The position numbers were made by a program, and so were the translations under genes. The notes under the pieces are model-generated. The model was not told the origin of the DNA. It was given only the letters and a program-made list of their open reading frames with translations, and did no database searches. This document shows positions 10,115 through 27,698 of a stretch of 33,680 bases of DNA, in pieces (the first letter of the stretch is position 1; each line of letters starts with the position of its first letter). Origin of the DNA: Ruminiclostridium sp. (lineage in GTDB: Bacteria; Bacillota; Clostridia; Oscillospirales; Ruminococcaceae); NCBI GenBank assembly GCA_017624025.1, contig JAGANY010000021.1, positions 1 to 33,680 of the forward strand. Direction: 5' to 3'.

Positions 10115-12212
10115 TTACGCTGAAAAGAATTTCGCCGTATGTAGGTACGGGCCAGTAGGAGCTTGCTACCATAGTTTCGAGGGTATCTACGATTTCACGA
10201 ATTTCGTTCATCTTTGCGAATATCTCGTCGTGGTAGAATCTCGCAATAGTTTCAACGCCGCTTAATTCCTTAACCTTAGTGAGAAGTCCGTAAAGCTCCT
10301 CGTTTTTAGCAAGCATAGAAGCAGAGAGAGAAGCGATTCTGTTAACTGTGTCAAGCTCTACAGACGCATCAACGCCGACATTCTTCTTCGACGCAATAAC
10401 ATCACATAAAACCTTCTGGTAAGACATAACTGCCGGTGCATAATCACGTTTTACCATCTGGGCTGCTGTCTGTGCTTCGATATTAAGCGTCTTATAATAA
10501 TTTTCAAGCAGAATTTCTGTTCTTGCGTGAATTTCACGTTCGGTAAATACCTTATGTCTGCCGAAAAGCTCGATAGACTTCTGGTCAGCAAAATGAGGAA
10601 GTGCGTCAACAGTAGAAACGAGATTCGGAAGACCTCTTTTCTTTGTTGCTTCTTCTACCCATACTTCATCGTAGCCGTTACCATTAAAGATAACTCTGCT
10701 GTGCTGCTTGAAGGTCTTAACGAGGAGAGAATGAAGAACTTCGTCGAAGTTTTCTGCTGTTGCCTTTTCAAGTTCATCAGCAAAAACTCTGAGAGATTCG
10801 GCAACGATAGTGTTAAGTATAATATTCGGAGTCGATACGTTGTGGGTAGAGCCTACCGAACGGAACTCGAACTTATTACCTGTAAATGCGAAGGGAGAGG
10901 TTCTGTTGCGGTCGGTATTGTCTTTCTTGAACTTAGGGAGAGTTACGATGCCTAAATCGAAATACGAGGATTTCTTTACGATAGTTCTTCCGTCAATAAT
11001 CGCCTTTACTACTTCATCAAGCTCATCGCCGAGGAATATGGAGATAATTGCGGGAGGAGCTTCGTGTGCACCTAAACGATGGTCATTACCTGCTGTTGCA
11101 ACGGAAAGACGGAGAAGCTCAGCATAATCGTCAACAGCCTTTATAACTGCCGCTAAGAATGTAAGGAACTGTGCGTTCTCGCTGGGGGACTTGCCGGGGT
11201 TAAGAAGATTCTGGCCGTCATCGGTAGAAAGTGCCCAGTTATCGTGTTTGCCCGAACCATTTACGCCCTTGAAAGGCTTTTCGTGAAGAAGGCAGACCAT
11301 ATCGTGCTTCTTGGCAATCTTCTGCATCATTTCCATAGCAAGCTGGTTCTGGTCAGCAGCTACGTTGGCGGAAGCGAAGATAGGAGCCATTTCGTGCTGT
11401 GCGGGAGCCGCTTCGTTGTGCTTTGTTGTAGAAGGAACGCCAAGCTTCCATAAAGCTATGTCGAGGTCCTTCATATAATCTGAAACTCTCTGCTTTATAA
11501 CGCCGAAGTAGTGGTCTTCCATTTCCTGTCCCTTAGGTGCGGGAGCACCGAAGAGAGTTCTTCCTGTATAAAGAAGGTCTTTTCTCTTTTCATATACGCT
11601 CTTGTCAACAAGGAAATATTCCTGTTCAGCTCCGACTGTAGGGATAACACGCTTTGAGGTCGTATTTCCGAACAAGCGGAGTACTCGTAAAGCCTGTTCG
11701 GAAAGAGCCGCCATAGAACGGAGAAGAGGAGTCTTTTTGTCGAGGGCTTCGCCTGTGTAGGAACAGAAAGCGGTAGGAATATAAAGGGTAGTATCCTTTA
11801 CGAAAACGAAGGAAGTAGGGTCCCATGCTGTATATCCTCTTGCTTCAAAGGTCGCACGGATGCCGCCGGAAGGGAAAGAAGAAGCGTCTGTTTCGCCCTT
11901 TATAAGCTCCTTGCCCGAAAATTCCATAATAACTGTACCGTCTCCTGTGGGAGCGATAAAGCTGTCGTGCTTTTCGGCAGTAATGCCTGTCATAGGCTGG
12001 AACCAGTGGGTATAATGGGTTGCACCCTTTTCGATTGCCCAGTCCTTCATAGCTGTAGCTACGCTTTCAGCAATAGAGCCGTCAAGCTCTCTGCCTGTGT
12101 TCATTGTTTCCTTAAGCTTTTTGAAGACATCCTTAGGAAGTCTTTTTCTCATAGTTGATTCGTTGAAGACATCCTCGCCGAAAATTCTCGACACATCGAT
12201 TACTTCTGCCAT
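10110..12212 (-). CDS. glnN: Glutamine synthetase type III
   Basis: ATP-dependent synthesis of glutamine from glutamate and ammonia in the cytoplasm. It is 700 aa from the ATG at 12212, which has AGGAGG 7 nt upstream; a longer in-frame start at 12266 would translate the leader hairpin and ribosome-binding site. GSIII hallmarks are present: RIFGEDVFN at the N-terminus, [80 protein letters not shown] and [24 protein letters not shown] is typical of Ruminococcus, Bacteroides and cyanobacteria. It is monocistronic, with its own promoter and a structured leader, and ends in repeat copy 2. Confidence 0.97.
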
Positions 12213-12242
12213 ATATGGTCCTCCTCTTAAGAGTAGAATATG

Positions 12243-12285
12243 AAAAAAGGCATTCTGACATAGCACGGGCTATGCAAAACGCCTT
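12243..12285 (-). terminator. Attenuator-like hairpin in the glnN leader
   Basis: In the minus-strand transcript, AAGGC pairs with GCCTT around an inner stem CATAGC-ccgt-GCTATG, and T6 follows immediately. This is the form of an intrinsic terminator. It lies between the promoter (12312-12340) and the ribosome-binding site, about 30 nt before the start codon, so it should reduce read-through unless an antiterminator acts. TGACA upstream (about 12294-12290) can pair with TGTCA in the right arm, giving a possible competing fold. Confidence 0.65.
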
Positions 12286-12311
12286 GTTCTGTCAATAAAT
12301 ATTACTTCATT

Positions 12312-12340
12312 ATAATAATATAAAACAACTGATTTGTCAA
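12312..12340 (-). promoter_or_regulatory. glnN promoter
   Basis: On the minus strand there is a perfect TTGACA (12340-12335), a 17-nt spacer and TATTAT (12317-12312), with an overlapping TATAAT 3 nt further on. The predicted start is near 12305, giving a leader of about 90 nt that contains the attenuator-like hairpin. Confidence 0.75.
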
Positions 12341-12377
12341 TATGGGAATATAGCCAAAATAAAATGTTGAAATACCC

Positions 12378-13007
12378 TTATTTTTCGCTGTGTTTCTTGG
12401 TTTTTTTCTCTACAAGCTTCGCCCATAACCCCCATACAAGCAGGTTTATGTTTATAATAAGCAATGTTTTAGAAATCGCCTTTATGCTTTCTTCGTAATT
12501 CGAAGCCGCACTTAAAAGACTAGTGTACATACCACAGGCTTCCGTTACGTTGTGCCAGGCAAAACCCAGAGACAGAACAGTAAGAATAAGCGGAAACACA
12601 TACATTCCAAGCTTTGATGACTTTTCGTCGAGCAAGTCCTGTCCGTGACGGAATATAAGGGCGAAGCATAATCCCAACAGTGCAATTATTGTCGGATAAA
12701 CGAAGAATTCTACTGCCGCATAGGTCTGTACCGAGGGGTATTCCTTAAAATAAAACACTGTTTCAACCGTCGGAACGAGAAAATCTCTCGTATCGCTTAC
12801 ATCAACGGTATAGCTATAGCTTTCCTCTTCAACAACATACTCATAAACCGCAAGCCGTTCAGCAGTAATGTCCTTTAATTCGCTTCGGCTTATACCGATT
12901 ATATCGAGGGTCGCAAAAAGTGCCGCAATAGAGAGAATTGCGAAAAAAAGGCAGGAAAAGGCAAGGAAAATCCAGCCGTTTACACGTAAATCCAGCAGTT
13001 TTTTCAT
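12378..13007 (-). CDS. Four-TM membrane protein, last gene of the DHHW/FkbH operon
   Basis: 209 aa and not recognised. Hydrophobic helices are at about 12-35, 97-120, 132-153 and 183-201. The loop between helices 1 and 2 (about 60 residues, Tyr/Glu/Val-rich) is predicted to be outside, and the tail is very basic (KLVEKKTKKHSEK, inside). It is too short and has too few helices for an MBOAT acyltransferase. The start at 13007 has GGTGAGGA about 6 nt upstream. It lies 44 nt after the acyl carrier protein gene in the same direction, so an accessory role in the same surface pathway is possible but unproven. Confidence 0.75.
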   Translation of the reverse strand: MKKLLDLRVNGWIFLAFSCLFFAILSIAALFATLDIIGISRSELKDITAERLAVYEYVVEEESYSYTVDVSDTRDFLVPTVETVFYFKEYPSVQTYAAVEFFVYPTIIALLGLCFALIFRHGQDLLDEKSSKLGMYVFPLILTVLSLGFAWHNVTEACGMYTSLLSAASNYEESIKAISKTLLIININLLVWGLWAKLVEKKTKKHSEK

Positions 13008-13051
13008 TTTTCCTCACCTCAGCATCGTCTATAAACAAGTATTTTTATCTT

Positions 13052-13285
13052 TTACATTCTTGACTTTATTATGTCTGCCATTTCTCCGACATTTTTCATA
13101 CCCGAAACTTCTCCCATCGTGAAGCGGATACCGAATTCGTCTTCTACGGCAGCCATAAGGGTAATATGGTTGAGACTGTCCCAGTCGTCGATATCGTCTG
13201 CTGTTGTTTCTTCGTCCAGTTCAATATCCTCGTCATCAAAAAAGTCACGGAATACTTCGTTAAGTCTTTCAAAAATTTCTTCCAT
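13052..13285 (-). CDS. Acyl carrier protein, pathway-specific
   Basis: 77-aa acidic four-helix protein that carries an acyl group on a phosphopantetheine arm. The attachment site is Ser37 in DDWDSLNHITLM, matching the DSL signature. It differs from typical fatty-acid ACPs (DSLDTVE) in having DSLNH, which is common in ACPs that partner with FkbH-like enzymes and specialised loading systems. AAGGAGG precedes the ATG, and the FkbH stop codon is 1 nt upstream, so the two are translationally linked. The context suggests it receives a group from the FkbH protein. Confidence 0.93.
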   Translation of the reverse strand: MEEIFERLNEVFRDFFDDEDIELDEETTADDIDDWDSLNHITLMAAVEDEFGIRFTMGEVSGMKNVGEMADIIKSRM

Positions 13286-13286
13286 C

Positions 13287-15074
13287 TTATTTTTCCTCCT
13301 TATTTATGTTTATATGCTTTGTATAAGGCTTATAACCGTCTGTTAAAAGCTCCCATACTGTATTTCCGTCGCTTTCCGACACCTTTTCAAAACCGAATGT
13401 GCCGAATAATTCCTTTACCATACCGTTTTTTGCGGTAGGGTAGTAATAGCCTCTGATTTTCTTTACGCCCTGTGCCGAAGCCGTTTCAACAACCTTGTCG
13501 AGCATTGCAAATTCCATCTCTCTTTTAAGAACTCTGCAGCTCATAATCCACAGGTCTATATTAAGCTCTGTGCCGTCCTTGTGACCGATAACTACCGAAA
13601 CAACGCCGTTATCTCCGAATTTATCGGACAATCTTCCGTAAAGAGCGATATAATTATTATCCGAAGCTATGCTTTCAATTTCGCTTTCGGTATAACGTCT
13701 TGTAGTTACGTTAAACTGGTTGCTTTTGTTGGTAAGCTGTGCGATACGCTGGAGGTAAGGGGGTGCGAAAGGCTTTATCTCCGCATTCATGGAAAGGCTG
13801 TCGAGATAATCTCCGTAATCGGAATAGCTCTTCATAAGGCTTGCTCTTTCGGCATTTGCCTTATACATTTCTCCCCTTTTTCTGTCGTCCTCAGAAAGAG
13901 AAACTACCTCGAAATATCTGTTTCTGTCGAGAATTCTTATGTAGTTCTCCGCTCCGTCCATTTCGGGAACAGCGGTACCCTTAAGCTGTTCACGGACGAT
14001 TTCACGTTCGGCAGGGTTATCGTCAGCAAAAACAAAGCTTTCGGGAAGAAGATTAAGCTCTTCGGCTGTTTCAAGAATGTTTCTGTCCTTGTTTTCCCAG
14101 TTCGCCTTTATAACCGTAAAGTCATCGGGGCGTAATGTGCCGTCGGGATGCTTAAGTCCTGCCTCAGCGTTTTCGTAATCGTTCTTCGAACAAACCGTAA
14201 GCAGTATTCCAAGGTCCTTATGAAGCTTAAGGTATTCCTGGAACTCCGAATAGACCTGGCCTTGCGGAAGGTCCATACCGATTTTTATATTATCCGCTCC
14301 GTCATCGCCTACAACTCCGCCCCAGAGGGTATTGTCGAGGTCGAGAGCGAGAACCTTTTTGTTCTTGCCGTAAATTGCCTTTATGATTGCCGCTGTGTTT
14401 GCGGCAAGATAAGGTACAGCCTGTAAGGAAAGTGCGTATTTATACATCTGCCAAGCAAGATTATCTGACCAGTTATCAAGACCGTAGCAGGCAGAAACAT
14501 AGTTTATGTCGTTTATATAAAGCTTTGGCTCGTTTTCGGCATATTCCGAAAACTTAAGATTAAGTTCATTTACAGCACGTACTCTTCCGTGAATATCCGA
14601 ACAATCGGAGTTTCCGAGAAGTCTGTATGACGGAAGCTCGAAGTTGTTCTGGATTATGGGACAGCCAAATTTTTCCTTTAAGCTTTCCCACATCTGTCTG
14701 TACCTTAAAAACTCGCTCTCTATAGCCGATAAAGCTTCCTCTCTGCTGTCTGTTACAGAGGGATAGCGGTTTATATTGCGGTTTGTGGTATAGACATAAA
14801 TAAGGTCGGGCTTGAATTCCGTAAGTTCTTCCGACGGGAACATCGCATCCTGCCAGTACTGACCGTATTCCGACAGGTAAAATGTCGGCTCGAGACCGTA
14901 ATTCAGCAGGAAAAGCTCCAGCTGGTCAGCCAGAGCGTTAGCCGTAGAGCCGGAAAGAATTGCAATCTTTACGGGAATACGCTTTATTCCGTCATTTTTA
15001 AAGGCTTTTTTCAAGCTTTTCTGTTTTTTAAGAAGATAACCGCTGTCAAAAGGGTATGTAAAAATGTCTTTTAT
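13287..15074 (-). CDS. FkbH-like HAD-family protein (acyl/glyceryl-ACP loading)
   Basis: About 595 aa. In the N-terminal ~220 residues AILSGSTANALADQLELFLL marks the FkbH family. The HAD domain follows with the DxDxT motif (VLALDLDNTLWGGVVGDDG), and a GNAT-like C-terminal part covers the last ~150 residues. Studied relatives move a glyceryl group from 1,3-bisphosphoglycerate to an ACP with loss of phosphate, and the ACP gene next door fits. No ATG, GTG or TTG lies between the upstream stop (15094) and the conserved YPFDSGYLLKK. Candidates are ATA at 15074 (9 nt after AAGGA, preferred) and ATT at 15080. An ATG at 15206 or 15185 would overlap the upstream gene by about 100 nt and has no good ribosome-binding site. 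Confidence 0.85.
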   Translation of the reverse strand: MKDIFTYPFDSGYLLKKQKSLKKAFKNDGIKRIPVKIAILSGSTANALADQLELFLLNYGLEPTFYLSEYGQYWQDAMFPSEELTEFKPDLIYVYTTNRNINRYPSVTDSREEALSAIESEFLRYRQMWESLKEKFGCPIIQNNFELPSYRLLGNSDCSDIHGRVRAVNELNLKFSEYAENEPKLYINDINYVSACYGLDNWSDNLAWQMYKYALSLQAVPYLAANTAAIIKAIYGKNKKVLALDLDNTLWGGVVGDDGADNIKIGMDLPQGQVYSEFQEYLKLHKDLGILLTVCSKNDYENAEAGLKHPDGTLRPDDFTVIKANWENKDRNILETAEELNLLPESFVFADDNPAEREIVREQLKGTAVPEMDGAENYIRILDRNRYFEVVSLSEDDRKRGEMYKANAERASLMKSYSDYGDYLDSLSMNAEIKPFAPPYLQRIAQLTNKSNQFNVTTRRYTESEIESIASDNNYIALYGRLSDKFGDNGVVSVVIGHKDGTELNIDLWIMSCRVLKREMEFAMLDKVVETASAQGVKKIRGYYYPTAKNGMVKELFGTFGFEKVSESDGNTVWELLTDGYKPYTKHININKEEK

Positions 15075-15093
15075 TTTAATCAGTCCTTTTTTA

Positions 15094-16380
15094 TCAATAA
15101 TTAAGTATTTTTCCGAGATAATTTCCGTTCGTTCCTGCCGGGGTAAAGGTACATACAGAGAAAAGCAGGTCGGTAGCACCCACATCCTTACAGAACTGAA
15201 CCGCATTCAGATAGAAATAACGTATGTCGCACACGTAAATCTTTTCAAAGGACGAGGTAAGGAAAGGCACAACAGCATTTCCATAGCTTTCCTTGAATAT
15301 TACAAGGGTACGTCCGTTTTTTGTTCCCGTTTCGATTTCTGCAATTATATTGTCTGCTCCTAAAAAAGAACAGTAATAACCGCTTGCATCGGGAGAGGTT
15401 ATAAGGCTTCCGCTGTAGCCGTTCTTGAAATATCCGTTATAATAGGTGGTTTTAAGGCTTTCATTGTCGGGCGGAATATATAAATCGAACTGTTCGGGGT
15501 CGTTATAAATAAGACTGCTCTCTGTGTACATATACATCGAGCCGACAAAACCGCCTCTTGTTACCTTTTTATATGCGTCGAGATAAGGGAAGCTTACCCC
15601 CGCCTCAACAGCAAAGGCCTGTGCAGCGTAGTAGCCGCCGAGTGGGAACCAATGGTGGTCGGTACGGGAAAAAATCGCTTCGTCGGTATGTGCCGCAAGA
15701 GCAGAATATGCGTCAACATTCTTCACATTCTTAAGGCAGGCACGGATATGGTCGATTTTTTTCCACTGGCTTGCCGTAAAATTATCAAAGCCTTCGGGAA
15801 CATAAAACTCGCTGGACGTAGGAACTACCATATTATATACATTTACATCAGGCAGCTTTTCTTTAAAGGTATTTACGCTTTCAGCCCAGCTTTCGCAAAG
15901 TCCGTATGTACCCCAGCAAGGCATCAACGCCCAGTAATGACCGTTTATTTCGGAAATAAGGAGACCGCTGTCATCAATAACATTATATGCTCCGCCGCTT
16001 ATTGATGTTACTTCCGGCTTCGGAAGGGTTTCGAGAGGGGATGTTGTAATTATAGCCTCTGTTTCGGGCGGTTTGGTGGTAATTTCGGGTAAGGTTTCTG
16101 AAAAAGAGGTTTCAGTACCGCCGATAAGGGTTTCGGGAATTGTTGTCTCGTAATGCTTCGTGCTTTTCGAGGTAACGATTTCTTCCGTTGCCGCTTCCGT
16201 TTCTTCGGGCAGGCTTTCGCCCGTTGTGGCACTGGTGCCTAAATCGGCGGCGATATACGCGTTTATTCCCTCGGTAACAACTGTACGGAAGGTAACTTCG
16301 CTTTCCTTATTTGCCGAGCAGGATGACAACAATACTGCTGTACATAAAAATACCGCCGTTTTTATAAATTTATTCTTCAT
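15094..16380 (-). CDS. DHHW-family lipoprotein (AlgX/AlgJ-like SGNH fold)
   Basis: 428 aa. The N-terminus is a lipoprotein signal (basic start, hydrophobic core, lipobox LSSC with the Cys near residue 21), so it is probably tethered to the outer face of the membrane. A Thr/Glu/Pro-rich linker (about 45-130) leads to the DHHW domain. D241-H242-H243-W244 (in SRTDHHWFPLGGYYAA) and S365 (in KESYGNAVVPFL) line up with an Asp-x-His plus Ser triad, as in alginate O-acetyltransferase proteins AlgX/AlgJ. It is a close paralogue of the upstream gene and overlaps it by 11 nt. The likely role is transfer of an acyl group to, or its removal from, a surface polymer. The substrate is unknown. Confidence 0.87.
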   Translation of the reverse strand: MKNKFIKTAVFLCTAVLLSSCSANKESEVTFRTVVTEGINAYIAADLGTSATTGESLPEETEAATEEIVTSKSTKHYETTIPETLIGGTETSFSETLPEITTKPPETEAIITTSPLETLPKPEVTSISGGAYNVIDDSGLLISEINGHYWALMPCWGTYGLCESWAESVNTFKEKLPDVNVYNMVVPTSSEFYVPEGFDNFTASQWKKIDHIRACLKNVKNVDAYSALAAHTDEAIFSRTDHHWFPLGGYYAAQAFAVEAGVSFPYLDAYKKVTRGGFVGSMYMYTESSLIYNDPEQFDLYIPPDNESLKTTYYNGYFKNGYSGSLITSPDASGYYCSFLGADNIIAEIETGTKNGRTLVIFKESYGNAVVPFLTSSFEKIYVCDIRYFYLNAVQFCKDVGATDLLFSVCTFTPAGTNGNYLGKILNY

Positions 16381-17926
16381 CTTCGGGTGGAATTGTTGTT
16401 TTTGTTGTTGCTTTCGTTTTCTTGGGCTTCTTTGTTGTGGCGGCTTCCGTTTCGGGAACTGTTGTAGCCTCTGTTGTCGAAGTTGCCGCTGCTTCTTCCA
16501 TAGCTATAAGCTCTTCCTTTGTGGGATTGGTGAACAATCTGTCAAGTCCGTTTGCGTTGGGGCCTACTGCTGAAAATGTACACATAGTAAAGAGAAGGTC
16601 GGTAATGCCCTCTTTCTTTATAAAATCAACAGCATTAAGGTCGAAATAACGCATATCGCATACATATATCTCCTCGAAAGAACCTGTATAGAACGGAACC
16701 TCGGCATTACCGTAGCTGTCCTTAAAGATAAGAAGCTTTCTTCCGTTTTTACAATCGGTTTCGATACGGACTATCTTAGCGTCGCCGCCCATAAACGTAG
16801 AATAGGACGAGCCTACAGGCATTTCAACAAATAACGGGAAGTTATAATCGAAATTATAGGCTGTATCATAATAATATACGGTATAATCGTTAGTCGGCTT
16901 ATAATATACGAACTGTTCGGGGTCATTAAGGATATTTACGCTTTCGGTATAGGAATACATTGTTCCTACATAGCCGTCAATAACAACTTCCTTATACGTA
17001 GATATGTCATTGAAGGGTACTTCCGCCGCCTTTGCCAGTGCTTCAGCGGCATAGTAAGCTCCGAGAGCCTGCCAGTGATGGTCGGTACGGGTATAGATAG
17101 GTTCGTCTGTATGTGCTCCGAGGGCGGAAATTCCGTCAACAGCTATAATGCTTTCGTTAAGCTGTGAATTGATGCTGTCAACGCTCTTGCGGTGGCTTGC
17201 GTTATACTCGTCGAAGTTGGACGGAAGATAGAATTCGCCTGCTGTGGGAACTACCATAGAGTATATTTTTACATCATCGCCCAGTGCTTCGCTGAAACGG
17301 TTAAGAGTATTTGCGTAGGTCGTACCCTTGCCGCCTCCGAAAAGGGAGATTGCCCAGTAATGTCCGTCGCTTCTCTTTACGACAACCTGTCCGTTGGTAA
17401 TAACGCCGTCAGCAATTTCGTTTATATGCTTTTCTGTTGTTGTCTGTTCCGTTGTGGTAACTGCAGTTGTTACCGCTGAGGTTACGGGAGTCTCGTCCGA
17501 ATCTCCGATAACGGGAGCTTCTGTAGTTACAGGTGCAACCACAGGCAGGTCTTCGGGCTCCTGCTCCGATTCTTCGGTAATAGCAACAAGCTGACCGTGA
17601 ATTTCGGCATTATCCAGTTCAACGCCGTAAAAGCTTTTTATTCCTGCCGCAACCTTTTTTAATTCATCACGGTAAGGAACTGTATCGTTGTAAAACTCAG
17701 CAATTCCCTCAGTATAATCGCCGTTTAAAAACGCTTCGTATGTAAATTCGGGGAATTTGGCAAGCTCACGCTGTTCTATAAGAGATTTTGTGGGTCTCTG
17801 AAGAACAAGCATAGCAATAACTATGCCCCCGAAGAAAATTCCGGAATATATGACATTGGCAGAGGCAAAAATAGGTTTTAAAGGCTTTACTGTTTCCTTT
17901 TTTGCCTTTTTCTTTTTTTCAGCCAT
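16370..17926 (-). CDS. DHHW-family membrane-anchored protein (AlgX/AlgJ-like)
   Basis: 518 aa, first gene of the operon. A Lys-rich cytoplasmic start (MAEKKKKAKKETVK) is followed by one transmembrane helix (about 22-43). After ~80 residues a Thr-rich linker (about 130-170) leads to the DHHW domain: D282-H283-H284-W285 in TRTDHHWQALGAYYAAEA and S404 in KDSYGNAEVPFY, giving an Asp-x-His plus Ser triad. The tail is again Thr-rich and Lys-rich (TTKKPKKTKATTKTT), perhaps for wall or glycan contact. The ATG at 17926 has GAGGAGA 6 nt upstream and a near-consensus promoter about 60 nt away. With its paralogue it may work as a pair on the same polymer. Confidence 0.88.
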   Translation of the reverse strand: MAEKKKKAKKETVKPLKPIFASANVIYSGIFFGGIVIAMLVLQRPTKSLIEQRELAKFPEFTYEAFLNGDYTEGIAEFYNDTVPYRDELKKVAAGIKSFYGVELDNAEIHGQLVAITEESEQEPEDLPVVAPVTTEAPVIGDSDETPVTSAVTTAVTTTEQTTTEKHINEIADGVITNGQVVVKRSDGHYWAISLFGGGKGTTYANTLNRFSEALGDDVKIYSMVVPTAGEFYLPSNFDEYNASHRKSVDSINSQLNESIIAVDGISALGAHTDEPIYTRTDHHWQALGAYYAAEALAKAAEVPFNDISTYKEVVIDGYVGTMYSYTESVNILNDPEQFVYYKPTNDYTVYYYDTAYNFDYNFPLFVEMPVGSSYSTFMGGDAKIVRIETDCKNGRKLLIFKDSYGNAEVPFYTGSFEEIYVCDMRYFDLNAVDFIKKEGITDLLFTMCTFSAVGPNANGLDRLFTNPTKEELIAMEEAAATSTTEATTVPETEAATTKKPKKTKATTKTTIPPEDEE

Positions 17927-17959
17927 TTATCTTCTCCTCTCTTTAGGGTGTTCTGTTTA

Positions 17960-17988
17960 ATTATAGTATATATGACAAATGCCGTCAA
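17960..17988 (-). promoter_or_regulatory. Promoter of the DHHW/FkbH/ACP operon
   Basis: On the minus strand: TTGACG (17988-17983), a 17-nt spacer, then TATAAT (17965-17960). The predicted start is about 27 nt before the translation start. It separates the five-gene operon from pth upstream. Confidence 0.82.
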
Positions 17989-23995: not shown

Positions 23996-26767
23996 TTATT
24001 CCTCTTCTTCGTCCTGTTCCTCTTCGGAATCTGCTTCGTCATCTGTCTCCAAAGAAGCCTTCTTTGACTTTTTCGCTGTAATTATACGGCTTATCGCTAT
24101 AAGGGCAATAAATACAACTGCTCCGGAAACAGTAATAATTACCGCCATAGGATAGCCTGCTGTTGTAAAGGACATTTCAATAGTATGTCTGCCTTCTGCA
24201 AGCGGTACGCCGATAAGAGCGTCGAGAACCTCAACATACTCTGTTTCAACGCCGTCAACCTTTACTGTCCAGCCCTTTTCAACAGGGATAGTTGTAAACA
24301 GCATATCATCATCGCCTGCATTTACTTCTATCTTAAGCTTTGTAGGCTTTACTCTTTCGGTAACGGTTTCCGCATTCTTTTCGTTTAATGCTCCTAAATC
24401 AGCAAAGATTGCATCATGGTCACAGAAAAGGAACTGTGCCTCTCTGAAATAAAGGTCTTCTCTTGTAAGGGTAAGACCGATAGTAACGCTTTCGCCCTTT
24501 TCAAAATCGCCTATCTTCATAATGCTGTTGTTGTCGCCTTCGAAATATGTGCCGAGGAAAAGCTCGCGGTTAAGCCACACGTTTACTTTTCTTTCGTACT
24601 TCGAGGGAAGATACATATAAAGAGCGGAGGTTTCGGGCATTTCAAAGGTATAAACGATTTCTGTATTCTGGTTTGCCTGCTTCTGCTTGAAGCTGTGGTG
24701 ACCGTCTGTGGTCTTGCCCTGTGTTACGTTGTTAAGCTCGAGGTCAACATCGTCTATAATTCTTGTGAAATACTCCGTTATCTGTGTTTCATCAGTTATA
24801 AGCTGTTTTCCGTAAAGCATAGTCTGGAGAAGCTCGTTCTGGTTAGCAAGAGGCTCTGTTGCGGATAATTCCAGGTCTTCCACATCATCGTCAACAAGAT
24901 ATGCTATAGGTAAAGCATATTCGTTTTCTGTAACGGTTATATCGTCCTTCGACTCGATATTTCCTGTCGAATTATCGGGGCAGGAAAGAATATATTTTAC
25001 GCTGAAAAGGCTGTTTGTGATTTCTGTACCGCCGGAAGAACGGGTATAGTGGCTTCTTGCGGAAAAGCCTAAGCGTGAAAGAAGCTCGATAGGCTTTGCG
25101 TTAAGGGTACTGGAGCTGTGTGAAAGTCCGTACATTCCACAGGCGAGAGGGTCGTTTACGGTTCTGTGGTATGTCTTTTCCACACGGTAGAAGCCGTCGT
25201 CCTTCGCCTTTATTTCGTCAACAACCTCTCTTGTAGGCACGATAACATCTACGTAGGAAGGACGTGTTGAATATACAATATCCCAGTCCTGACGTAAAAT
25301 CTGGACAAAGGTATTTGCAAAGATTTCACAGGAAATTATAACGGTAAATACAATACAGCCCCATTTTTTGTTGAAGCGGTCTTTAAGCTGAACTACCGCC
25401 GCACTTATAAGGAGCAGGATAAACATAGCAGGGAGAATTACCTGAAGGCTGTCCATTGTATCACGGTCAATATCTTCGAGGAAATTATCCGCCTTTTCAA
25501 TAAGAAGAAGTACAGCGAACCAGGCTACTGCAATTCCTGCAATATGCTTCTTGCGGATTTCGGAGATGCTGTTGAAGGCTTCTGCCGAGAAACGTATCAT
25601 AAGAAAAGAAAGCATAAAGCTATAGCGGTAAGGAAGCCAGTTGGGAAGCTGTCCGCCGTGCCAGAGCATATCCACCTGACATATCCACATTGAACAGCAG
25701 ATTATTGCTATAATCGAAGCGGCCGCAATTCTGTCTCTTCCTCTTATCTTCTTCGAGAAGAAGTAGCAAGGGAGCATAAGAAGAACAATAGTACCGCAAT
25801 AGATAAAGGGAAGTCCCGACATTCTTACTGTATCATAGGTAAGCGGGAACATCTTATCCAGCATTTCGATAAGGTCGAAATTTGTATAAACGGTGCTGTA
25901 ATCGGGCTCGGAGAAGTCGAATTTTCCGTAAGAAAGCGAGTTATATACCGGTATAAGCATATAACAGGACATCATTGCGGAAATAATAGCTACCGCCGTA
26001 AAAAGAACGCCTCTTCCGATAAAAAGACCTGCAAGTCCTTTTTTGTGGGACGCTACAGCATAGTAGAGGAAATAGATTGCCGAGAATATGGCAATCATAA
26101 ATCCGATATAGAAGCAGGTTACAAATGCATATACAAGAGAAATTGTAAGCATTATAAACTTACCCTCGTCCATAAGCTTTTCGATACCGTAAACAACGAG
26201 AGGAAGTATCATAACGCCGTCCAGCCACATAGGGTTCATTGTCTGTACCATAGTGTAGGAGCAGAGTGCGTAGCTTGCGGAGAAAACGACGGTAGTAAGC
26301 TTATTATAGCCCTTTCCTCTGCTTAAATATACAGCTGTACAGAGTCCGATAGCTCCGACCTTCGTTACCATCATTGTAAGAAGACCTTCGGTTATCATAT
26401 TACGTGGGAACATCCATACAAGGAAATTAAAGGGGCTTCCGAGGTAATAACCTATGATGCCCATAAATTCGCCCGAAAGGTTTCTGCTCCAGGAGTAGAA
26501 GACGCTTTCCTCTCCTGCAAAAACATCATACATATAGTCATAGTAATATACATACTGACCGTTTAAGTCGAGAGATAATACGGATTCGTCCCCGAAAGGA
26601 TAAACGCCGAAAATAAAGTATGCGAGAAGCAGAATGAAACAAGGAATGCCGAAGGATACGGGAAGCTCCCAGTCTTTTGTGAAAAATCTCTTTATTCCCG
26701 ATTTTGCATAACCCAGATATCTGCTCACAACGCTCTGTGAGTCTGTTGTTTTTTCTGTTGCTGTCAT
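23996..26767 (-). CDS. YfhO-family membrane protein (surface glycosylation)
   Basis: 923 aa. After a short cytoplasmic start there are roughly 12 hydrophobic helices up to about residue 480 (first one SFGIPCFILLLAYFIFGVYPF). A ~350-residue extracytoplasmic domain follows, then one last helix (about 875-895) and an acidic tail (DDEADSEEEQDEEEE). Early loop motifs DLNGQYVYYYDYMYDV and FYSWSRNLSGEF are typical of the YfhO family, GT-C-like enzymes. In B. subtilis and Listeria, YfhO proteins work with a GtrB/CsbB-type enzyme to put a sugar on lipoteichoic acid outside the cell. Exactly such an enzyme is encoded 1 nt upstream. The polymer decorated here is unknown. Confidence 0.9.
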   Translation of the reverse strand: MTATEKTTDSQSVVSRYLGYAKSGIKRFFTKDWELPVSFGIPCFILLLAYFIFGVYPFGDESVLSLDLNGQYVYYYDYMYDVFAGEESVFYSWSRNLSGEFMGIIGYYLGSPFNFLVWMFPRNMITEGLLTMMVTKVGAIGLCTAVYLSRGKGYNKLTTVVFSASYALCSYTMVQTMNPMWLDGVMILPLVVYGIEKLMDEGKFIMLTISLVYAFVTCFYIGFMIAIFSAIYFLYYAVASHKKGLAGLFIGRGVLFTAVAIISAMMSCYMLIPVYNSLSYGKFDFSEPDYSTVYTNFDLIEMLDKMFPLTYDTVRMSGLPFIYCGTIVLLMLPCYFFSKKIRGRDRIAAASIIAIICCSMWICQVDMLWHGGQLPNWLPYRYSFMLSFLMIRFSAEAFNSISEIRKKHIAGIAVAWFAVLLLIEKADNFLEDIDRDTMDSLQVILPAMFILLLISAAVVQLKDRFNKKWGCIVFTVIISCEIFANTFVQILRQDWDIVYSTRPSYVDVIVPTREVVDEIKAKDDGFYRVEKTYHRTVNDPLACGMYGLSHSSSTLNAKPIELLSRLGFSARSHYTRSSGGTEITNSLFSVKYILSCPDNSTGNIESKDDITVTENEYALPIAYLVDDDVEDLELSATEPLANQNELLQTMLYGKQLITDETQITEYFTRIIDDVDLELNNVTQGKTTDGHHSFKQKQANQNTEIVYTFEMPETSALYMYLPSKYERKVNVWLNRELFLGTYFEGDNNSIMKIGDFEKGESVTIGLTLTREDLYFREAQFLFCDHDAIFADLGALNEKNAETVTERVKPTKLKIEVNAGDDDMLFTTIPVEKGWTVKVDGVETEYVEVLDALIGVPLAEGRHTIEMSFTTAGYPMAVIITVSGAVVFIALIAISRIITAKKSKKASLETDDEADSEEEQDEEEE

Positions 26768-26768
26768 T

Positions 26769-27698
26769 TTATTTGTCCTTGCTCCTTTTCTTTGTGTCTA
26801 TGGAAACTATATATCTCGGACGGAATTTTATCTCTTCATATATTTTTGCCATATAATAGCCGATTACTCCGAGACCAAGCATAATAAACGAGCCTGTAAG
26901 AAGAATAAGTATATATACCGTCGGGAAGCCTTCGGCAGATACGCCCGAAAAATGCTGTACGAGGGTATATATTCCGAAACCTACCGCAAAAAGCAGAAAG
27001 ATAATGCCTGCTCCCGTAATTATCTGAAGAGGAAGGTTCGTAAAGCTTGTTATATTATTGAGTGCGAATTTCATCAGCTTTCCGAAATTCCACTTTGTTG
27101 TTCCTGCATTGCGTGGTGCAACGTGGAACTCGAGCTGTGTCGTTTTAAAGCCTACCCAGCTTGACAATGCACGGAAAAAGGTAAGTCTTTCGGGCATCTC
27201 GTTGAGAGCGTCTATGACCTTTCTGTCCATAAGCTTATAATCGCTTGCACGGTCAAGGTTTACGTCTGCCGAATTCTTCATAAGACGATAGAAGCCTTTA
27301 GCAAAGGTTTTATAGATTAAGCTTTCCTTGCCTCTGCTCGCTTTTACTGCTTCAACGACCTCGTAGCCCTGTTCCCATAGGTTCACCATTTCGGGAATAA
27401 GCTCCGGCGGATGCTGTAAATCACAGTCGATTACTACCGCACAATCGCCTTCACAAGCCTTTAAGCCTGCAAAAATAGCGCCTTCCTTACCGAAATTACG
27501 GGAGAACTTAAGTCCTCGTACCGAAGGGTTTTCTTCAGCAAGACGGCTTATTAATTCCCAGGTCTTATCCTTTGAGCCGTCATCAACGAACATTATTTCA
27601 CATTCGATTTTTTCATCGGAAAGAATCTTGTATATTGTTTCCGCTGTTTTTTCAATATTCTCCTGTTCATTATATGCAGGAATTATTACTGAAAGCAT
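26769..27698 (-). CDS. Polyprenyl-phosphate glycosyltransferase (GtrB/CsbB type)
   Basis: 309 aa. The N-terminal GT2 domain has LSVIIPAYNEQENI, D39-D40-G41 (FVDDGSKDKT), SRNFGKEGAIFAGL and D91-x-D93 (VVIDCDLQHPPE). Two C-terminal hydrophobic helices (about 225-250 and 262-288) anchor it with the catalytic domain inside. Members load a sugar from a nucleotide sugar onto undecaprenyl phosphate. The adjacent YfhO protein is the expected user of that lipid-sugar on the outside. The ATG at 27698 is preceded by GAGG, and its stop codon is 1 nt from the YfhO start, so the pair is tightly coupled. Confidence 0.93.
   Translation of the reverse strand: MLSVIIPAYNEQENIEKTAETIYKILSDEKIECEIMFVDDGSKDKTWELISRLAEENPSVRGLKFSRNFGKEGAIFAGLKACEGDCAVVIDCDLQHPPELIPEMVNLWEQGYEVVEAVKASRGKESLIYKTFAKGFYRLMKNSADVNLDRASDYKLMDRKVIDALNEMPERLTFFRALSSWVGFKTTQLEFHVAPRNAGTTKWNFGKLMKFALNNITSFTNLPLQIITGAGIIFLLFAVGFGIYTLVQHFSGVSAEGFPTVYILILLTGSFIMLGLGVIGYYMAKIYEEIKFRPRYIVSIDTKKRSKDK

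Follow-up and report, generated by a model that had tools for sequence, protein, structure and literature searches.

A putative FkbH- and carrier-protein-dependent route for surface-polymer esterification in Ruminiclostridium

Here, we analyze an operon-like run of five genes on the minus strand (12378-17988) of a 33,680-nucleotide stretch of DNA from Ruminiclostridium sp. (contig JAGANY010000021.1; the whole stretch is called the window below) and propose, with a probability of roughly 0.6, that it encodes most of a trans-membrane acylation route resembling the Dlt pathway. An FkbH protein would load an acyl group onto a dedicated acyl carrier protein (ACP), a membrane-bound O-acyltransferase (MBOAT) would pass the group on, and proteins of the DHHW family would esterify a polymer of the cell surface. 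The proposal draws on the gene content and catalytic motifs of the run, on folds taken from homology or models, on co-occurrence among relatives, and on an MBOAT from another place in the genome that is orthologous to operon-borne MBOATs. All five open reading frames (ORFs) were confirmed, in the order DHHW1-DHHW2-FkbH-ACP-4-TM (the last a small four-helix membrane protein):

17960..17988, minus strand: sigma-70-like promoter match, TTGACG-17-TATAAT, 11 of 12 consensus positions
16370..17926, minus strand: DHHW1, SGNH/DHHW acyltransferase-like protein with an N-terminal hydrophobic anchor (by eye), D282/H284/S404 and D-x-R-Y at 424-427
15094..16380, minus strand: DHHW2, DHHW family, with a lipoprotein-type signal LLSSC (by eye), D241/H243/S365 and D-x-R-Y at 385-388
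13287..15074, minus strand: FkbH, comprising FkbH_N, a HAD phosphatase and a C-terminal GNAT-fold domain; probable start at ATA (15074) or ATT (15080)
13052..13285, minus strand: dedicated ACP with phosphopantetheine site Ser37 (PP-binding profile)
12378..13007, minus strand: 4-TM, small membrane protein with four hydrophobic helices (by eye)

An earlier note on this DNA, made by a model from the sequence letters, had read two paralogous exported proteins with Asp-x-His/Ser triads, an FkbH-like HAD protein and a dedicated ACP, and profile searches bore out each of these. The two DHHW proteins matched PF14286 (8.8e-50 and 3.5e-42), the triad residues were correct, and the DHHW motif block, nucleophile serine and D-x-R-Y are intact in both. 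The SGNH fold, for which the note had suggested structure prediction, is supported by homology to solved structures: DHHW1 is closest to 4nzk (389.8 bits) and also matches PatB1 (5v8d, 39.2 bits), and DHHW2 matches 4nzk at 267.9 bits. A passage of PMC9487903 names 4nzk as EUBSIR_00411 of Eubacterium siraeum. FkbH scored 276.8 bits against TIGR01686 (cut-off 146.65), and both its HAD catalytic aspartates (D245/D247) and C513 of its GNAT-fold domain were invariant in all 32 FkbHs compared. A cysteine of the HAD loop was considered as the FkbH acyl site and rejected, as alanine or asparagine stands there in two cassette FkbHs. The ACP exceeded the PP-binding cut-off (25.8 against 20.8 bits) with Ser37 placed within DDWDSL; its solved relative 2lml has a reported role in lipopolysaccharide synthesis. 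Part assignments thus rest on sequence, structure and linkage, with folds taken from homology or models.

In the first step of the proposed route, FkbH would, to judge from its family, take an acyl phosphate from glycolysis, with 1,3-bisphosphoglycerate the most likely one; the acyl group would pass to the phosphopantetheine of the ACP, probably via the GNAT-fold domain of FkbH, and the HAD domain would remove the phosphate to give glyceryl-ACP. Work on OzmB reportedly stands behind this FkbH reaction. Judging by natural-product relatives, glyceryl is the most likely acyl group, and part of PMC7489565 gives glyceryl from 1,3-bisphosphoglycerate as the group handled by the family. In the second step, which is modeled on DltB/DltC and on sequence signatures, the ACP would dock on the MBOAT encoded on contig C65 of the same genome, and this MBOAT would move the group to the outer face, onto the tyrosine of the FLYWQF motif at its own C-terminus. 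In the third, by analogy with PatB, PatB1 and DltD, the anchored DHHW1 (Ser404) and the lipoprotein DHHW2 (Ser365) would accept the group and esterify the polymer.

The genes are conserved as a unit. We compared 60 genomes, comprising the window's own draft (58% complete) and 59 relatives, of which 36 belong to the genus, and found FkbH in 29 (28 above cut-off), including 25 of the 36 genus genomes. Two DHHW genes lie directly upstream of FkbH in 23 of the 25 genus loci, the window included (one of the remaining two has a single DHHW and the other is cut by a contig end), and the ACP is directly 3' of FkbH in 19. This agrees with the earlier note's pairing of a cytoplasmic FkbH/ACP donor with external DHHW proteins. 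At one genus locus (L050 of G011, 10503-15673), FkbH and its ACP are about 5 kb apart, the ACP having kept its place beside a glutamine synthetase gene; L040, L062 and L065, which are near relatives, likewise have no ACP beside FkbH. In the DHHW tree (a quick tree, as were those of the 132-row MBOAT and 108-row FkbH sets below), the proteins of FkbH cassettes split from all others with an SH-like approximate likelihood ratio (SH-aLRT) of 99 and three exceptions, and within the genus the 23 DHHW1 rows and the 23 DHHW2 rows are each set off by a single branch. Rows below 250 aa or lacking a literal DHHW were left out of this tree, and with them ten paralogues that have lost the nucleophile. These ten are extra DHHW genes beside an FkbH-type MBOAT, found in 10/10 loci of a sub-clade (L114, 5304-6959; L121, L123, L130, L131, L145, L148, L152, L154 and L156), in which the serine is replaced by aspartate (DDY for DSY) and DHHW by D-x-HW; such a paralogue may be a catalytically dead docking partner.

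The earlier note saw no MBOAT in the operon and suggested a genome-wide search, which recovered two, both outside the operon. On contig C39 an MBOAT is directly followed by a third DHHW, forming a standard MBOAT-DHHW pair, and on C65 an MBOAT has no DHHW within 4 kb. Two genomes of two other families (G045 and G054) carry MBOAT-DHHW-DHHW-FkbH-ACP on one strand, and in a tree of 82 MBOATs their enzymes and that of C65 fall in one 26-row clade with support of 100/100. This tree omitted rows shorter than 350 aa (among them G034, 173 aa, and G025, 259 aa), and the MBOATs of 24 genomes from other orders were sampled in part. C65-type MBOATs occur in 24 of the 25 FkbH-positive genus genomes (23 on the tree, plus the G034 fragment recognized by its end motif), the exception being the 76% complete G016. 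They occur in 2 of the 11 FkbH-negative genus genomes (G007, 80% complete and on the tree, and the G025 fragment, 83% complete), and in none of the five FkbH-negative ones that are at least 90% complete. Nine of these 11 form one clade in the C39-type part of the tree. With 132 rows (cassette MBOATs below 380 and then below 420 aa left out, including the truncated L180 and L191), the 23 MBOATs from MBOAT-DHHW(s)-FkbH-ACP loci and the 24 of the genus are together split off from all other rows by a single branch (SH-aLRT 100). The C65 enzyme is therefore best read, on phylogeny, as the probable dedicated MBOAT of the FkbH-ACP operon and an orthologue of the operon-borne ones.

This bears on the earlier note's suggestion that the 4-TM protein, which alone among the operon's products spans the membrane several times, moves the ACP-borne group in place of an MBOAT, which we now regard as very improbable. 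Of the 60 genomes, the window's own and G022 have the 4-TM gene, next to the operon in both, and it was found in none of the 58 others; the protein matched no family above cut-off in profile searches and lacks an FxYxxF tail, and a dedicated MBOAT exists on C65, with orthologues that are operon-borne in other families. The structure prediction that the note had called for gave an unusable model (mean predicted local distance difference test, pLDDT, of 48.5 from two sequences). The 4-TM protein is probably a lineage-specific accessory and not a core part. The C39 locus raises a different alternative, that the C39 MBOAT serves DHHW1 and DHHW2, which would be ordinary O-acetyltransferases, and that FkbH and ACP belong to an unrelated natural-product or lipid pathway sharing the promoter. 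A standard MBOAT-DHHW pair is indeed present there, and PatB1, itself a DHHW protein, is described in a passage of PMC9487903 as a polymer O-acetyltransferase. However, the C39 pair has its own DHHW, the FkbH cassettes of other families include both a DHHW and their own MBOAT, and inspection of the window's ORFs by eye revealed no polyketide synthase (PKS) or nonribosomal peptide synthetase (NRPS) gene (no profile search was made for them), so that we consider this explanation improbable.

Under the preferred reading, in which the C65 MBOAT serves the operon, two regions of the enzyme merit attention. Its C-terminal end is NPFLYWQF, and in PatA and DltX the tyrosine of such an F.Y..[FI]-type motif carries the acyl group, according to part of PMC12148441. 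Secondly, the segment from FWxRWH to WHG is 35 residues long with [PTK][ILV][FG]G in 47/47 MBOATs of the C65 clade. In the 56 unlinked MBOATs it reads [PS][LM]GG in 53, is long in 2 and unmatched in 1, and in the 29 from other cassette types it is of another, mostly long, form in 22, [PS][LM]GG in 3 and unmatched in 4; these patterns were picked after the data had been viewed. In DltB, helix HC of this region is the DltC docking site (as given in an excerpt of PMC11035591), and with the HC correspondence placed by residue numbers and alignment, the altered segment may reflect carrier docking.

Beyond the relatives, we surveyed the best 80 of 572 confirmed FkbH loci, defining clusters by common strand and gaps below 2.5 kb. 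An ACP was in the cluster at 72 of the 80 and an MBOAT at 55. The arrangements were MBOAT-DHHW-FkbH-ACP (22 loci), MBOAT-DHHW-DHHW-DHHW-FkbH-ACP (1), FkbH-ACP-MBOAT (25), FkbH-ACP (16), FkbH alone (5), MBOAT-FkbH-ACP (4), DHHW-DHHW-FkbH-ACP (3, in the window's genus) and four single types. Among the hosts given in the records are Ruminococcus flavefaciens 007c (L249) and Neglectibacter for MBOAT-DHHW-FkbH-ACP, and Eisenbergiella tayi for FkbH-ACP-MBOAT. In six Lachnospiraceae loci (L186, L196, L197, L198, L228 and L257), FkbH-ACP stands beside a GDSL-type protein (Pfam match on L197 only) and large membrane proteins (by eye) with no MBOAT in the cluster; in L198 and L228 an MBOAT lies about 4 kb upstream of FkbH-ACP.

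Some loci of the other cassette types also carry MaoC, SDR, HAD, glyoxalase-like or split transketolase genes. Split transketolase-like genes occur at L220 (9779-12966, with Pfam matches on the L220 copies), L222, L244 and L248, three of which also have a MaoC-like gene, which suggests further ACP-bound hydroxyacyl groups. These neighbors feed another alternative, in which the pathway is the same with a different acyl group: FkbH would make another short hydroxyacyl-ACP, such as lactyl, or another enzyme would load the ACP. Enzymes of these kinds beside FkbH relatives could alter the group. Yet no member of these gene clusters was found among the neighbors examined at MBOAT-DHHW-FkbH-ACP loci, nor in the window's operon, and the HAD residues are invariant in all 32 FkbHs. 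The direct FkbH product is thus the simplest donor, and a different group seems unlikely.

Compared with known systems, the proposed glyceryl route most resembles the Dlt pathway for D-alanylation of teichoic acids (DltA-DltC-DltB-DltX-DltD), sharing a loader, a phosphopantetheine carrier, an MBOAT, an FxYxxF shuttle and an SGNH transferase in the same order of roles. It differs in its loader, which is FkbH (HAD plus GNAT fold) where Dlt has an adenylating ligase; in its shuttle motif, which is the end of the MBOAT itself; and in its SGNH protein, of DHHW type where Dlt has DltD; its acyl group and polymer may differ as well. Profile searches of the operon found no adenylating enzyme (no DltA search was made of the own genome), and the DltD family (PF04914) was present in 2 of the 60 genomes and in none of the genus, the 58% complete own draft included. 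The C65 MBOAT scored 153.7 bits against the DltB equivalog, below the cut-off of 375, and is related to DltB 6bug at 2.2e-19. By its members, then, the cassette is not a Dlt system, though it has the FxYxxF motif. PatA1/PatB1 of Bacillus cereus and CcsH/CcsI of Clostridioides difficile likewise combine an MBOAT with a DHHW transferase bearing the DHHW block, nucleophile serine and D-x-R-Y; these serve O-acetylation, and the source passages on them mention no FkbH or ACP. In the present system, MBOAT and SGNH protein share one operon in other Clostridia and are split between loci in the genus, and the dedicated ACP speaks against a PatA/PatB-type acyl-CoA donor working without a carrier. Part of PMC12148441 states that, outside Dlt, MBOAT/SGNH pathways have no comparable carrier protein. 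Natural-product FkbH/ACP pairs (tetronates, methoxymalonyl-ACP) work with PKS or FabH-like enzymes, whereas the FkbH/ACP pair described here is accompanied by an MBOAT and exported DHHW proteins. The open-licence literature searched held no report joining FkbH with DltD or an MBOAT/DHHW pathway; PMC10143770, where FkbH, MBOAT and ACP appear together, concerns aeruginosins. The FkbH-ACP-MBOAT-DHHW combination is not described in that literature.

Several points weigh against the proposed route. Its activity is a prediction, each transfer step being modeled on relatives, and the choice of glycerate as the acyl group comes from knowledge of the family only. The cassette has no consistent link to any polymer synthase. 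Within the genus, the co-occurrence of FkbH and MBOAT counts as little more than one gain or loss, because nine of the 11 FkbH-negative genomes form one clade. The shuttle motif does not set C65-clade MBOATs apart, since F.Y..[FI] ends 47/47 of them, 56/56 unlinked MBOATs and 26/29 of those from other cassette types. The segment change tracks the phylogeny, which makes it a small number of events and not independent proof of ACP use. The FkbH tree does not mirror the MBOAT result: it neither confirms nor excludes a single shared descent of the genus cassette, since its backbone is weak, the genus needs three label changes in place of one, and the nine rows that include the window form a group separate from two further groups of the genus, which lie among MBOAT-DHHW-FkbH-ACP loci. 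At 25 of the best 80 FkbH loci there is no MBOAT in the cluster, some being cut by contig ends. The earlier note had held that scattering of the genes in close relatives would speak against it; DHHW and FkbH genes are not scattered, the ACP is partly so, being absent from beside FkbH in 6 of the 25 genus loci (displaced, cut off or absent from the stretch fetched), and the MBOAT is separate within the genus.

Teichoic acid was considered as the polymer and rejected, and as most FkbH-positive genomes are without PF04464, we leave the polymer unnamed. PF04464 is present in 11 of 25 FkbH-positive and 1 of 11 FkbH-negative genus genomes, and in 20 of 60 overall; the own draft (58% complete) has none. 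At 4 of 23 MBOAT-DHHW(s)-FkbH-ACP loci (L182, L202, L204 and L239), TagF-like genes immediately precede the cassette, those of L202 and L239 being confirmed as PF04464.

Gene spacing within the operon comprises an 11-nt overlap of DHHW1 and DHHW2, a 1-nt gap between FkbH and ACP and a 44-nt gap between ACP and 4-TM. The near-consensus promoter that the earlier note saw driving the operon stands as a match at 11 of 12 positions; a scan found 17 such sites against a shuffled mean of 13.1 (standard deviation 2.2), so TTGACG-17-TATAAT is a consensus match only, and a single transcript across all five genes would follow from the spacing. No ATG, GTG or TTG lies near the true 5' end of FkbH, and a standard start is likewise absent there in the close relative G004. 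The listed start at 15206 falls inside DHHW2, and comparison with the ATG at the corresponding place in G022 gives ATA or ATT as the probable start. Elsewhere in the window (23996-27698), a YfhO-family membrane protein and a GT2 glycosyltransferase may form a second pair for decorating envelope glycans. The genus also contains an FkbH-negative genome (G003) in which an adenylating enzyme (246.7 bits against the DltA model, cut-off 476), a carrier and a long-segment MBOAT make up a single run (L103, 2651-6014, on G003:C91), with a nearby protein (408-1523) that is SGNH-like by eye and has no NCBIfam match; this run fits a modular scheme with an exchangeable loader.

If the proposed route is true, MBOAT/SGNH pathways would be modular, in that the loading chemistry (adenylation or FkbH), the carrier, the MBOAT and the SGNH protein could each be exchanged, and gut bacteria would have a new surface-polymer ester whose supply is tied to glycolysis, parallel to the D-alanine decoration of teichoic acids with a different loading enzyme. 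The cassette reading would also suggest a role for 4nzk, a DHHW structure that is solved but biochemically uncharacterized. More tentatively, and at somewhat under even odds, we propose that this may be a second carrier-protein-dependent route of surface-polymer esterification, widespread in gut Clostridia and supplied with its acyl group directly by an acyl phosphate of glycolysis, with no ATP-driven adenylation, such that the polymers would bear glycerate, sister cassettes with extra enzymes would yield other hydroxyacyl decorations, and docking would be marked by the altered cytoplasmic segment of the MBOAT.
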